Source: Chloroflexia bacterium | GTDB taxonomy: Bacteria > Chloroflexota > Chloroflexia > Thermomicrobiales > CFX8 | Direction of reading: 5' to 3' | DNA: 34,810 nucleotides | NCBI GenBank assembly: GCA_030431755.1 | Contig: JAUIIK010000046.1 | Location: 1-34,810 of the forward strand | Shown: positions 5,611 through 11,713 of the stretch, in pieces | How positions within the stretch are numbered: the stretch's first letter is position 1 | Layout: each line of letters opens with the position of its first letter | Position numbers and translations under genes: made by a program | Notes under the pieces: model-generated | Database searches by the model: none | Seen by the model: the letters and a program-made list of their open reading frames with translations, nothing else | What the model was told of the DNA's origin: nothing

Positions 5611-5644
5611 CGCCTGTCGTTTTGACTGGAGTTGGGAGTTGTGT

Positions 5645-6304
5645 GTGGGCGCTAGCGAAACTGGTGATTGCCGGCCGCCATTGGGAAGTCGGAGTGTCGA
5701 AGAACTAGCTGCGCATATCGCCGCGCCGCGCCAGCACGTCGGTGGCGGCTCCGCCGCTGCTGCGTCGGGAGCACTCGCGGCGGCCTGTGCGGAGCTAGTT
5801 GTCACGCTCTCGATCCGGCGCTCGACGCCGGCCGACGCCGCCGAGCAACTGCGTGGCTGGCAGAGCCGGCTGAAGGAGCTCCAGGCAGAACTCCTTGCGG
5901 CCGGCGACCACGATGAGGCCGTACTAGCGGAACTCATGGCTGCCTACAAAGCGCGCGCTACCGACCAGGAACAGCACCTGACCGCCGCCGCAAGGAGCGT
6001 CCTGGCAATTGCCGCGCTTGCCTCCGAGGTCGGCACAATCGCCGCGGCAGCGGTCGATTTTGCCTCCCGCTTCACCGTCAGCGACCTGGGCGCTGCAGCG
6101 ACTATCGCCCGCGGCGCGACTCAAGCAGGGCTGATGACAGCAGAGATCAACATCCAGATGCTCGCTGAGCTGGACAACGCCCCAACGAGTGAGGTGGCCG
6201 AGCTCCGCGAGGCCCATTGCACAATCGACGAACGATCGCAGGTTGCCGCCGATCGCGCTATCGCTGGAACGCGGGCACGCCTGAACCCCGGAGGCGCGCC
6301 ATGA
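5645..6304 (+). CDS. fchA: Methenyl-tetrahydrofolate cyclohydrolase / cyclodeaminase family
   Basis: A 219-aa all-helical protein of the formiminotransferase-cyclodeaminase C-terminal family. These enzymes interconvert methenyl- and formyl-tetrahydrofolate or deaminate formimino-tetrahydrofolate. The glycine-rich motif HVGGGSAAAASG near residues 32-43 is the family hallmark, and the length matches stand-alone FchA. I chose GTG at 5645 because GGGAG ends six bases before it; a TTG at 5639 in the same frame abuts that site. The gene overlaps folD by four bases (ATGA), so the two are probably translated together. With folD and fhs beside it, cyclohydrolase is more likely than histidine-degradation cyclodeaminase. 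No formiminotransferase domain is present. Confidence 0.85.
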   Translation: MGASETGDCRPPLGSRSVEELAAHIAAPRQHVGGGSAAAASGALAAACAELVVTLSIRRSTPADAAEQLRGWQSRLKELQAELLAAGDHDEAVLAELMAAYKARATDQEQHLTAAARSVLAIAALASEVGTIAAAAVDFASRFTVSDLGAAATIARGATQAGLMTAEINIQMLAELDNAPTSEVAELREAHCTIDERSQVAADRAIAGTRARLNPGGAP

Positions 6305-7170
6305 CCATGACTGCAAGATCACTTGAGGGAAAAGCAGTTGCGCTTGAGTTATCCGAGAGGGCGCGTGACGAATTAGCCGAGATCCGGGCGCAGCACAATG
6401 TCACGCCTGCGCTAGCGATCGTGCGCGTCGGCGACGACGAGAGCTCGGTCGCCTATGAACGCTCGATATCTCGCACAGGCACTCGCGCCGGCATCGTTGT
6501 CGGAGCGGAACACCTCGCCGAATCCGCCACCGCCGACGAACTTGCGGCGACAATCGAGCGGCTGAACCGCGACCCTGCTATCCACGGTGTCATCGTGCTC
6601 CAGCCGCTCCCCGCCCATCTGTCACGCTTTGCGGTCGCCGACGTCGTTTCACCGGCTAAAGACATCGACGGAATAACGACCTACAACGCCGGCCGCCTCT
6701 TCCACGATGACTACGACGTCCTCGCGCCCTCGACCCCCGCCGGCGGCATGGCGTTGCTCAAGCACTACGAGATTCCGTTGAGCGGCCGGCACGCAGTCAT
6801 CGTCGGACGCAGCTCAGTCGTCGGCAAGCCAATGGCGATGATGATGCTGGCAGAGAACTGTACAGTGACGATCTGCCATTCGCGCACATCGGACCTCGCC
6901 ACGCTCTGTAAACAGGCCGATATCCTGGTCAGCGCCGTCGGACGCGCGAACATGATCGATGAGCGCTTCGTGAAGCCCGGCGCGGTCGTTGTCGACTTTG
7001 GCGTGAATTTCGTTGACGGCAAGATGACCGGCGATGTGGACGAGCAAGCGGTCGCGCCGGTAGCCGCCGCGCTTACGCCGGTCCCGGGAGGAACCGGCCG
7101 TGTTACGACAATGGTGCTCGTCCGCAACACCATCCGCGCCGCCCGCCAGGCACTGGACGCGGCACAATAA
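6301..7170 (+). CDS. folD: Methylene-tetrahydrofolate dehydrogenase, FolD family (cyclohydrolase residues lost)
   Basis: A 289-aa FolD-family enzyme that oxidises or reduces methylene-/methenyl-tetrahydrofolate with NAD(P). Seen: the folate-domain KDIDG motif (120-124), the nucleotide-binding loop VGRSSVVGKPMA and the C-terminal PVPGGTG. The usual Tyr-x3-Lys catalytic pair reads Y52-ERS-I56, with an ATA codon at 6466-6468, so the lysine is isoleucine. The usual VQLPLP motif reads VLQPLP, putting Leu where the catalytic Gln normally sits. Both residues serve the cyclohydrolase half-reaction in bifunctional FolD, so this protein is probably a dehydrogenase only, with adjacent FchA taking the other step. 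It starts at ATG 6301, inside the fchA stop, with GGAGG upstream. Confidence 0.93.
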   Translation: MTMTARSLEGKAVALELSERARDELAEIRAQHNVTPALAIVRVGDDESSVAYERSISRTGTRAGIVVGAEHLAESATADELAATIERLNRDPAIHGVIVLQPLPAHLSRFAVADVVSPAKDIDGITTYNAGRLFHDDYDVLAPSTPAGGMALLKHYEIPLSGRHAVIVGRSSVVGKPMAMMMLAENCTVTICHSRTSDLATLCKQADILVSAVGRANMIDERFVKPGAVVVDFGVNFVDGKMTGDVDEQAVAPVAAALTPVPGGTGRVTTMVLVRNTIRAARQALDAAQ

Positions 7171-7230: not shown

Positions 7231-8922
7231 ATGCTGACAGACATTGAAATCGCCCGCGCCGCGACACTCCTACCGATTGATGAGGTCGCCGCGAATCTTG
7301 GACTCCAACCCGACGAGGTCGAGCTCTACGGTCGCTACAAGGCGAAGATCAAGCTTGATGCGATTGCCAACCGCGCCGACGCGCCACAGGGCACCTATGT
7401 GATCGTCACCGCAATTACCCCAACGCCGCTCGGCGAAGGCAAGACAACCACCACAGTGGGACTCGGCCAGGCATTGCACAGGCTCGGCAAGAACTCCATC
7501 ATCGCTATCCGGCAGCCATCACTCGGGCCCGTGTTCGGCATCAAAGGCGGAGCGGCGGGGGGCGGCCACTCCCAGGTGATTCCGATGGAGGACTTCAATC
7601 TGCATCTGACTGGCGACAGCCACGCGGTCACAGCCGCGCACAATCTCTGCGCGGCATTTCTCGACAATGCGCTATTTCGCGGCAATAAGCTGAACATTGA
7701 TCCGGAATCCGTGATGTGGCGCAGGGTCATCGATGTCAACGACCGCGGCCTGCGCGATATCGTCACCGGTCTCGGCGCAGGCAACGGCCTCGTCCAACAA
7801 ACCGGCTTCGACATCACTGCCGCCTCCGAGATTATGGCCATCCTCGCCCTCACGACTAGTGTCCAGGACCTGCGCCAGCGCATCGGCCGGATCGTCGTTG
7901 CATTTACCTACGACGGCAAGCCGGTGACCGCCGAAGACATCGGCGCGGCTGGCGCCATGACGGTCCTGATGCTCGACGCTATCAAACCCAACCTGATGCA
8001 GACGCTCGAAAACTCCCCGGCCCTCGTCCACGCCGGCCCCTTCGGCAACATCGCTCACGGCAACTCCTCAATCCTTGCCGACCAGATCGGTTTGAAAGTT
8101 GCGGACATCCTGGTTACGGAGGCAGGGTTTGGGGCAGACCTGGGCGCGGAGAAGTTCTTCAATATCAAGTGCCGCGCCTCGGGCCTCCGCCCATCGGTCG
8201 CGGTGATGGTGGCAACCATCCGAGCGCTCAAAGCGCACAGCGGCCGCTACCGGGTGGTCGCCGGACGCGACCTGCCGCCCGAGATGGTGACGGAGAACCT
8301 CGACGCGATTCGCGAAGGTCTACCGAATCTCACGAAACAGATCGAGAATGCGAGGCGGCACGGGGTCCCAGTTGTCGTCGCTGTCAACCGCTTCCCTGAC
8401 GACACCGACGCCGAGGTTGAGCTCGTGCGCAAGGCCGGGCTGGACGCCGGCGCAGTCGATGTCGCCGAATCGAACGTCTTCGCCGAAGGTGGCGCGGGCG
8501 GTGAAGCGCTTGCACAAGCAGTGCTCAAGGCGGCCGAAACACCGAGCGGTTTCAATTTTCTGTACGACGCTGAAGCGCCGATCAAGGAGAAGATCGAGGC
8601 GATTGCGACCGAGATCTACGGCGCGGGCTCAGTCTCATACTCCCGTGGCGCGAACCGGGCGATCCGCCGGTTCACCGATCTCGGCTATGACAATCTGCCC
8701 ATCTGCATGGCCAAGACCCATCTCTCGTTGAGCGGCGACGGCTCGCTCAAGGGACGCCCTGAAGGTTTCGATCTGGCAATCCGCGAAGTGCGGGCGTCCG
8801 TGGGCGCAGGGTTCATTTACCCCATCGTCGGGACGATGCGCACCATGCCCGGCCTCGGGAGCTCGCCCGGTGGACTCGATGTCGATATCGATGAGGACGG
8901 CAACATCGTCGGGCTCTTCTAG
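7231..8922 (+). CDS. fhs: Formate-tetrahydrofolate ligase
   Basis: A 563-aa enzyme that condenses formate with tetrahydrofolate at the cost of ATP to give 10-formyl-tetrahydrofolate in the cytoplasm. The length is normal for the family (about 557). The nucleotide loop TPLGEGKTTTT lies near 65-75, and family signatures GPVFGIKGGAAGGGHSQV and EAGFGADLGAEKF are present. The ATG at 7231 has only a weak upstream Shine-Dalgarno (GGATTGGA). It is the last gene of the one-carbon operon, 60 bases after folD; that gap contains a small AGCCG/CGGCT hairpin. The three enzymes together take formate to methylene-tetrahydrofolate, or run in reverse. Nothing here tells which direction dominates. Confidence 0.97.
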   Translation: MLTDIEIARAATLLPIDEVAANLGLQPDEVELYGRYKAKIKLDAIANRADAPQGTYVIVTAITPTPLGEGKTTTTVGLGQALHRLGKNSIIAIRQPSLGPVFGIKGGAAGGGHSQVIPMEDFNLHLTGDSHAVTAAHNLCAAFLDNALFRGNKLNIDPESVMWRRVIDVNDRGLRDIVTGLGAGNGLVQQTGFDITAASEIMAILALTTSVQDLRQRIGRIVVAFTYDGKPVTAEDIGAAGAMTVLMLDAIKPNLMQTLENSPALVHAGPFGNIAHGNSSILADQIGLKVADILVTEAGFGADLGAEKFFNIKCRASGLRPSVAVMVATIRALKAHSGRYRVVAGRDLPPEMVTENLDAIREGLPNLTKQIENARRHGVPVVVAVNRFPDDTDAEVELVRKAGLDAGAVDVAESNVFAEGGAGGEALAQAVLKAAETPSGFNFLYDAEAPIKEKIEAIATEIYGAGSVSYSRGANRAIRRFTDLGYDNLPICMAKTHLSLSGDGSLKGRPEGFDLAIREVRASVGAGFIYPIVGTMRTMPGLGSSPGGLDVDIDEDGNIVGLF

Positions 8923-9340: not shown

Positions 9341-10555
9341 TCAACTCGCCGGTGTGAACTCGAGCTCCCCTGGCGCAGTCAGCACCGCCAGGCCCAGGCC
9401 CCGCAGCGCATCGTGATCCGCAAGCTCACGGTCTGTCGCTGTAACGAAGAGCTGGCAGCCAATGGTGCTGATCCGTGCAAGGAGATCCTCGCGATGAACT
9501 CCGTCGAGTTCGGACAGCACATCATCGAGCAACAAGGCTGGCCGGGCGTCAATACGCCCCGTCATGAACTCAATCTCCGCGAGCTTCAAGGCAACGATCG
9601 CCAAGCGCTGTTGGCCGCGGGAACCAAAGCGCTGGATAGGCCTGCCGCCGAGCAGCAGCTCCAGGTCGTCGCGGTGCGGACCGACGGTGGTGACGCCGCG
9701 CGCGATATCCTCCCGTAGTGCCGCCTGCATCGCCGACTCGAGCACGACAGCGACTCTCTGACTCAGACTGCGAACGTCACCGCCGGATTCGGCAAGAGAC
9801 GCCCACCACTCCGGCGGCTGATCGAGCGTCGAGGCATAGCGCACCGACAGCTCAGCGGGGAAAGCCGCGATCTCCCGGAACATCTGCGCCGCATGATCTG
9901 CAATCGTGCGCGCCGCAAGCACCCGCGCAGTGATCAGATATGCCCCGAGCGCTACGATCTGGTCGTCCCAGTAGCCGAGCTCGTTGCGGTTGCCCTGCCC
10001 GGAGGCAATGGCCTTGAGCAATGAGTTGCGGTGCGTCATCATCCGCCCGTGACGCGACAGATGCCGCATGTACTCGCGGTCAGTCTGCGACAACGCGACA
10101 TCGAGGAACCTGCGACGGACGCTTGGCGACCCAATGACAAGGTCGAGGTCTTCCGGCGAAAATGAGACCGTCGGAAAGAGGCCAACCACATCGGCCGCCT
10201 TGCGTGGCGCATCGCCAACTCGCAGCAGCTTGCGCGTCATATTGCCATTGGTTCGCTCGATGAAAATATCGACCTCCGCGGCAACCAGCGGTGATTCGAC
10301 ATCCCCTTGGACCCGCGCATACGGTCGCGTTGCAAGCTCGATGCCACTTTCGTGGTGGATCAGGTCGGCGTCGAGGACGCCTTTGCGCGACCGCGTCGTA
10401 GAGAGCAGCAGCAACGCTTCGATGATTGACGTCTTACCGGACCCATTCGGACCGGCAATGCGTAAGCCGCCATCGTCGAGCGCAAGCTCAACGTGCCGGT
10501 ACACGCGAAACTCATCGAGTAGGAGTCGCCTGAGCGTTACCGCTTCAACTGTCAC
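9341..10555 (-). CDS. recF: DNA replication and repair protein RecF
   Basis: A 404-aa SMC-like ATPase that helps load RecA at gaps with RecO and RecR. Walker A GPNGSGKT lies at about 35-42. The ABC signature region FGSRGQQRLAIVALKLAE and a Walker B ALLLDDVLSELD lie in the C-terminal third, in family order. The start is GTG at 10553-10555. It follows dnaN on the same strand after a 15-base gap, the classic dnaN-recF pair. The usual upstream dnaA and downstream gyrB are not here; the gene is followed instead by a tRNA. Confidence 0.96.
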   Translation of the reverse strand: MTVEAVTLRRLLLDEFRVYRHVELALDDGGLRIAGPNGSGKTSIIEALLLLSTTRSRKGVLDADLIHHESGIELATRPYARVQGDVESPLVAAEVDIFIERTNGNMTRKLLRVGDAPRKAADVVGLFPTVSFSPEDLDLVIGSPSVRRRFLDVALSQTDREYMRHLSRHGRMMTHRNSLLKAIASGQGNRNELGYWDDQIVALGAYLITARVLAARTIADHAAQMFREIAAFPAELSVRYASTLDQPPEWWASLAESGGDVRSLSQRVAVVLESAMQAALREDIARGVTTVGPHRDDLELLLGGRPIQRFGSRGQQRLAIVALKLAEIEFMTGRIDARPALLLDDVLSELDGVHREDLLARISTIGCQLFVTATDRELADHDALRGLGLAVLTAPGELEFTPAS

Positions 10556-10570
10556 GCCATCAACGGGTCA

Positions 10571-11713
10571 CTAGTTTGCGCCAATCACCATCGGCATGAT
10601 GACGTGGACGAACTGGTCGTCGTCGATGGGCCGGAACACGCCGGCAGCGTTGGGCCCCTGTAGCTCCAGCGCGATCGAAGGGCTATCTAGCACCGAAAGC
10701 ACATCTGATAGGTAGCGTCCATTGAATGCGACTTCGAGCTCGGTGCCCTCGATCTGTGCATCAAGCTCGTCACGATTGTCACCGGTGTCCGCCGCCGTCG
10801 CCGTGATCGTCAGCTTCCCGATCCCGTCGTCGCCACTGGCGGGATCGAGCGCGAACTTGATGACGTCGTTGTTCGAGCGGGCGAAGATCGCCGCTCGTCG
10901 GGTCGCGTCAAGCAACACCTCCCGCGAGATCACCGAGCGGGTGTTCCAGGCCTGCGGGATGATCTGCCGCAAGTCCGGAAAGGTTCCGTCGATTAATCGC
11001 GTGACAAGCATCACGTCGGGCAGATCCACCACCATCTGAGCCTGGTTCGGCGTGATGCGAACCTCCGCCTGCTCCTGGCTATCCGCGAGGATTCGGCCTA
11101 TCTCCTGCATGCTCCGGGCCGGCACAACGATTGAGAGTGGCTCGTCGAACTCGCCTGCCATCGGCATCTCGCGGAAGGACATGCGGAATCCGTCGGCCGC
11201 CGCAAGCGCCAGCACATCGCCTTTGCTCTCGATGTGTACGCCGGCAAGCACCGGCCGCGAATCGTCGGTCGCGGCGGCAAACACTACCTGCTCGATCGCG
11301 TTCCGGAACTCGCCACAGCCGACTGCAAACTGCATGCCTGCCGCGGAGTCGGGGGCGATCGCCGGAAAATCATCCGCATCCTGACCACGCACATGAGCCT
11401 GCGTCAAGCCCTGCTTGACCAGCATCGTCGTCGGGCCGGAGTCCTCGAAAAGCTCAATCTCGCCGGATGAGAGCGTCGAGACGAAATCGCTGAGCACCCG
11501 TGCCTGGAGCGCCGCTTTACCCGGCTCGTCGATCCGTGCCGGAATGCGACAGACGATGCCGCGCTCGAGATCAGTCGCAGACACAATGAGCTCGTCGTCG
11601 GCAGTTTCGATGAGATAGTTGCCGAGCACCGGCAAGGTCGTTCGTGACGCCACCGCCCGTCCAGCAATTGACAAGGCGCGTTGCAGATTTTCCTGGAGAC
11701 AGGTGACTCTCAC
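10571..11713 (-). CDS. dnaN: DNA polymerase III sliding clamp (beta subunit)
   Basis: A 380-aa beta clamp of normal length, which forms a dimeric ring around DNA and tethers the polymerase. The N-terminus MRVTCLQENLQRAL and the C-terminus ending VIMPMVIGAN (the usual pMRL-type end, here divergent) fit three clamp domains. The start is GTG at 11711-11713, with AAGGAG nine bases upstream. Transcription probably begins at the extended -10 element at 11758-11766. It is followed by recF. The absence of dnaA upstream means this locus cannot be called the replication origin. Confidence 0.96.
   Translation of the reverse strand: MRVTCLQENLQRALSIAGRAVASRTTLPVLGNYLIETADDELIVSATDLERGIVCRIPARIDEPGKAALQARVLSDFVSTLSSGEIELFEDSGPTTMLVKQGLTQAHVRGQDADDFPAIAPDSAAGMQFAVGCGEFRNAIEQVVFAAATDDSRPVLAGVHIESKGDVLALAAADGFRMSFREMPMAGEFDEPLSIVVPARSMQEIGRILADSQEQAEVRITPNQAQMVVDLPDVMLVTRLIDGTFPDLRQIIPQAWNTRSVISREVLLDATRRAAIFARSNNDVIKFALDPASGDDGIGKLTITATAADTGDNRDELDAQIEGTELEVAFNGRYLSDVLSVLDSPSIALELQGPNAAGVFRPIDDDQFVHVIMPMVIGAN

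Follow-up and report, generated by a model that had tools for sequence, protein, structure and literature searches.

A universal catalytic Lys is found at the heart of FolD. In work attributed to Aluri et al. in 2016, FolD of Clostridium perfringens is said to act as a dehydrogenase only and FchA as the cyclohydrolase, and both proteins were reportedly required to replace E. coli FolD. Yeast Mtd1 (1edz), a monofunctional dehydrogenase of the same family as the FolD studied here, is very distant from it (E 2.5e-7).

In E. coli FolD, the K54N variant has undetectable cyclohydrolase activity and ~19% of the dehydrogenase left, and Q98H keeps ~1% of the cyclohydrolase and ~8% of the dehydrogenase (PMC5688156). 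In addition, carolacton binds the FolD Lys, and K54N is no longer affected by it (PMC5688156). In Acetobacterium woodii, monofunctional proteins occur where that of Moorella is bifunctional, as mentioned in a passage of PMC9124964 that cites Ragsdale and Ljungdahl 1984. Acetogens and Clostridium already offer examples of such a split system.

Here, we compare these systems with a locus of a Chloroflexia bacterium (GCA_030431755.1), located in a 34,810-nucleotide stretch, contig JAUIIK010000046.1, hereafter named the window. Bifunctional FolDs (E. coli, human MTHFD1, A. baumannii 4b4u) share with the window FolD the fold, both domains, and the active-site Tyr and Asp. In contrast, the window FolD has Ile for Lys, Leu for Gln, and PGGTGRVT for PGGVGPMT.

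The acetogen type was represented by genome G394, where the gene order is fhs-fchA-folD-rnfC2-metV-metF, with a metV of 205 aa. Cluster II of A. woodii contains the same genes, with a MetV of 205 residues (PMC3315566); since the two match gene for gene, we infer that G394 is A. woodii or a near copy. In the FolD of G394, Ile occupies the Lys site and Gln-Leu is replaced with Phe-Gln (FQPLP). As the A. woodii dehydrogenase is reported to be monofunctional, an enzyme with the same substitution as the window FolD would thus have been purified and reported as dehydrogenase-only. As in the window, fchA is directly 5' of folD, fhs belongs to the cluster, the Lys site is Ile and the Gln site is shifted (FQPLP there, LQPLP in the window). 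Unlike in the window, fhs is upstream, and rnfC2-metV-metF of acetogenesis come next in the cluster. This FolD, presumed to be that of A. woodii, is a distant relative of the window FolD. Two features of the monofunctional acetogen type, a Lys-less FolD and a standalone, linked FchA, are found in the window.

Results

The window FolD lacks the catalytic Lys and the helper Gln

The folD gene (6301-7170, + strand) encodes a 289-aa protein, predicted to be a dehydrogenase only, in which PF00763 and PF02882 both exceed the Pfam cut-off. Ile56, encoded by ATA (6466-6468, +), occupies the site of the catalytic Lys (E. coli Lys54). This assignment, first made in a sequence-only reading, is borne out by the translation and by a HMMER alignment, gap-free in this region, with the Lys of the solved FolDs 4b4u, 3l07 and 3p2o. 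The same alignment places the window V-L-Q-P-L-P against V-Q-[LH]-P of the three structures, again without gaps, and agrees with the reading that VQLPLP is permuted to VLQPLP (6595-6612, +), with Leu100 at the Gln site (E. coli Gln98). The further claim that all other FolD motifs are intact stands for Tyr52 (E. coli Tyr50; 6454-6456, +), Lys120, Asp121 and Asp123 of KDIDG (6667-6669, +), which are kept and invariant in 18/18 relatives, as is Ile56 itself. It fails for a loop of the folate site, where translation and alignment give PGGTGRVT (7084-7107, +) instead of PGGVGPMT, with Arg replacing Pro in this C-terminal loop. GR is common to the window's family, and sister genera are altered otherwise (GA, GV). 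Overall, two marks of bifunctional FolD, the catalytic Lys and the Gln of VQxPxP, are absent, and two others, the Asp of KDVDG and the helix Tyr, are present. Among the matches listed, the NCBIfam 'bifunctional' FolD models are the best for the window FolD, yet it remains under their own cut-offs.

An AlphaFold2 model, computed from the 18 relatives, has a mean pLDDT of 91.8 and has FolD 4b4u as best PDB match (TM 0.91). Ile56 is positioned inside helix 47-63; the corresponding E. coli helix bears Tyr as well as Lys (PMC5688156).

Three motif changes close to the folate site, together with the drop of E. coli dehydrogenase to ~8% in Q98H (PMC5688156), could indicate that FolD is decaying or re-purposed and that neither activity matters. 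We give this next to no probability. The gene is the sole folD of the genome (97% complete), in which a genome search found no second FolD; its open frame is clean, both Pfam domains are present, the model is confident, and the operon and the remaining residues are conserved across the class. The sequence-only reading had likewise considered that the gene is not decaying.

Chance or misalignment at the Lys site was also considered and ruled out, given the gap-free structural homologues and the class-wide fixation of a non-Lys residue, in most cases Ile or Leu.

folD overlaps an fchA-type gene and is followed by fhs

The gene order in the window is fchA-folD-fhs. The fchA-type gene (5639-6304, +) encodes 221 aa from a putative TTG start and matches PF04961 with 87.9 bits (cut-off 24.5). 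Its stop overlaps the folD start in an ATGA (6301-6304, +; folD ATG 6301-6303, fchA TGA 6302-6304), and a GGAGG inside fchA (6290-6294, +), six bases ahead of the folD ATG, is likely the ribosome-binding site of folD. The PF04961 match and the overlap agree with the earlier description of a separate, coupled cyclohydrolase-type gene upstream. The third gene, fhs (7231-8922, +), encodes a 563-aa formate-tetrahydrofolate ligase (PF01268, 840 bits; NF010030, 802 bits, cut-off 652). Adjoining frames on the - strand (9341-11713) are recF-like and dnaN-like, as judged from their translations alone.

The window FchA is the single PF04961 protein found by the genome search. Pfam identified PF04961 alone in its 221 aa, with no formiminotransferase domains (FTCD). 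By its PF04961 domain it is a protein of the FchA/cyclodeaminase fold. It matches 1o5h and 7vg4, a methenyl-THF cyclohydrolase, by phmmer, and a profile built from its relatives reaches 1.5e-58 against 7vg4. It scores 48.2 bits against NF045657 (curated cut-off 275), so it is homologous to the curated equivalog but far from it, and the usual PTPGGG and NVxIN forms are missing. Because of this divergence and the loss of the usual motifs, its own activity is not certain.

FchA is divergent in families f1 and f4 of the window's order (window 5639-6304, L082-L088, L126-L128), where PF04961 scores are ~55-113 bits as compared to ~180-220 for most of the class. This divergence goes in step with the extra FolD changes.

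Lys state of FolD and presence of FchA go together

The class was searched in 158 genomes (FolD in 141, PF04961 in 141), the phylum in 151 genomes spread over Chloroflexota, and the class of a clostridial locus in 118 genomes; 14 genomes behind named records were added. FolD sequences were read from about 250 genomes, chosen partly by ourselves and including related, hence non-independent, genomes. FolD Lys state was counted against PF04961 per genome, excluding G332, which has a gap at the Lys site. FTCD proteins were called fused or long from the length of the open frame; formiminotransferase domains are confirmed by Pfam in L111 and visible in the sequence of L199.

All 71 Chloroflexia genomes read have a Lys-less FolD, exclusively so in 70 (Ile, Leu, Val or Ala at the site), while one draft adds a Lys-bearing copy. 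FchA is present in 60 of the 70 and absent from 8, and 2 have a fused FTCD alone; the mixed genome has FchA. This answers the check proposed in the earlier reading, namely whether the Lys change co-occurs with fchA within the phylum: it mostly does. In the other Chloroflexota, 36 genomes with Lys-less FolD have FchA and 1 does not. Lys-bearing genomes of the same group are without FchA in 25 cases, have a fused or long FTCD in 13 and a standalone match in 4; two genomes of mixed Lys state are both without FchA. Clostridia show the same pattern: FchA accompanies Lys-less FolD in 39 genomes (absent from 1), and is missing from 39 genomes with Lys-bearing FolD (present in 2); one mixed genome has FchA. 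Finally, FchA is absent from 13 more Lys-bearing genomes, clostridial and from other groups. An fchA immediately 5' of folD on the same strand is seen at about 95 of the loci that we read, some of which overlap one another; within the order to which the window belongs, many loci of sufficient length also have fhs 3' of folD.

Taking all rows together, the residue at the Lys site is Lys in 100, Ile in 91, Leu in 26, Ala in 23, Val in 13 and Gln in 3. The Gln site is Gln in 99/100 Lys-bearing rows but in just 71 Lys-less rows; Gln being near-universal with Lys and often gone without it, its loss looks like a later relaxation. Gln loss is present in the window's order and in many clostridial enzymes, while VQMPLP or VQLPLP is retained by the majority of the other Chloroflexota. 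These sequences point to a Lys loss that is old and spread across the phylum, and to a later, separate loss of Gln.

L321, L322 and L323 (in G400, G344 and G372) are clostridial FolDs in which Gln takes the place of the Lys, and their genomes have an unlinked FchA. Several Chloroflexota have an additional FolD copy, not linked, of a second Lys-less type (PGGLGPLT, LLPLP), observed at L227, L229, L230 and L232-L236.

These data also bear on the possibility that FolD retains a useful cyclohydrolase activity through another residue, such as Arg58 or a water placed by Asp123 and Tyr52, FchA adding capacity or serving formimino-THF metabolism. Asp123 and Tyr52 are indeed kept, and a basic residue at +2 from the lost Lys is nearly always there. 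However, most normal FolDs carry this basic residue alongside Lys, so it is not a replacement. Moreover, E. coli K54N is devoid of detectable cyclohydrolase (PMC5688156), the site accepts Ala, Leu, Val, Ile or Gln alike, as expected for an irrelevant side chain, and the presence of FchA tracks the Lys state. Retention of the activity is therefore quite improbable, and loss of the cyclohydrolase step from FolD remains the preferred interpretation.

Exceptions to the pairing

Lys-less FolD occurs with no PF04961 match in the Chloroflexia drafts G002, G062, G074, G095, G126, G132, G142 and G152 and, outside the class, in G187 and G337. A second search of the FchA-less genomes, using a profile made from divergent FchAs, gave no gain except for G157, an apparent ninth Chloroflexia case, where part of an FchA is located at the end of a contig. 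In near-complete genomes of the class, FolD is found in 90/93 and FchA in 89/93; as FchA is absent about as often as FolD, assembly gaps can account for most FchA-less drafts. Relatives with the Lys change and no fchA, which the sequence-only reading had named as evidence against its proposal, are thus rare (8/71 Chloroflexia, all drafts), but family f14 is likely a true exception. Its FolD (L123, L154, L354, L355) is Lys-less, with KDVEG replacing KDVDG. No standalone FchA was found in f14; the family has at most a fused FTCD, present in most of these genomes, and the C-terminal domain of this protein is an FchA homologue. At two of its loci, L154 and L355, fhs is directly 3' of folD.

Conversely, a Lys-bearing FolD and a standalone PF04961 protein coexist in G173, G228, G242 and G249, where the matches are weak and unlinked, and in G359 and G371. 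These proteins may serve formimino-THF metabolism. The normal FolD found in G100, a family member, comes from a 3.7-kb contig, possibly a contaminant.

The Lys was lost repeatedly

A careful tree of 53 FolDs, built without the Lys and Gln sites and their neighbouring columns, requires no fewer than 3 changes of Lys state (bootstrap 5-95% range 3-3); a larger, quicker tree gives five. Only 4 independent pairs were available for a paired comparative test. Deep support being modest and this test underpowered, the safe statement is that there were about three or more changes. The Lys-less groups are Chloroflexota with FchA, clostridial FolDs with FchA, three of which are Gln-bearing, and a tandem pair in G209 and G259, made up of a Lys-less FolD and, after it, a Lys-bearing one. 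The tandem loci are L176:511-2370 (G259) and L178:550-2367 (G209). The phylum-wide PF04961 search found no FchA in G209 or G259. From its sequence, the tandem looks like the same functional split, reached via duplication.

Most Lys-less FolDs of Chloroflexota form one clade, as expected if Lys loss and FchA were old lineage marks that coincide through common descent and not through function. Yet the association recurs in a separate Lys-less clade of Clostridia, and the third loss immediately adjoins a Lys-bearing FolD. This makes coincidence by descent highly improbable.

Discussion

Our main interpretation, to which we give a probability of roughly 0.88, is that the window FolD is a dehydrogenase only, that FchA is the cyclohydrolase and that Fhs is the ligase. 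Gene order and residues are directly visible in the window, and the co-occurrence extends over two phyla with repeated origin; all of these support the division of labour that the sequence-only reading had proposed, with the activities of FolD and FchA as its predicted part. FolD would oxidize methylene-THF to methenyl-THF, or catalyze the reverse, and would no longer perform the second step, the addition of water, since this step is driven by Lys, here replaced with Ile, and assisted by Gln, here replaced with Leu. FchA, which has a different fold, would take over the step between methenyl-THF and formyl-THF, while Fhs would join formate to THF.

In the lineage of the window, FolD (Lys, Gln and PGGVGP loop lost) and FchA (motifs lost) could have drifted jointly, with an obligate complex passing methenyl-THF straight between the two active sites; we consider this unlikely. 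The third motif change, the ancient, phylum-wide Lys loss, the later Gln loss and the precedent in acetogens and Clostridium are points that the earlier reading did not contain.

Two points may be new, namely how widely the split extends within Chloroflexota and how Lys loss pairs, repeatedly and almost exclusively, with another source of cyclohydrolase: we found no paper stating either in the literature covered, which mostly excludes subscription journals. With few exceptions, a single FolD residue forecasts whether a bacterium has a separate cyclohydrolase. Pathway annotation could therefore drop the 'bifunctional' label for Lys-less FolDs. In addition, since carolacton needs the Lys (PMC5688156), Lys-less FolDs are predicted to be insensitive to it.
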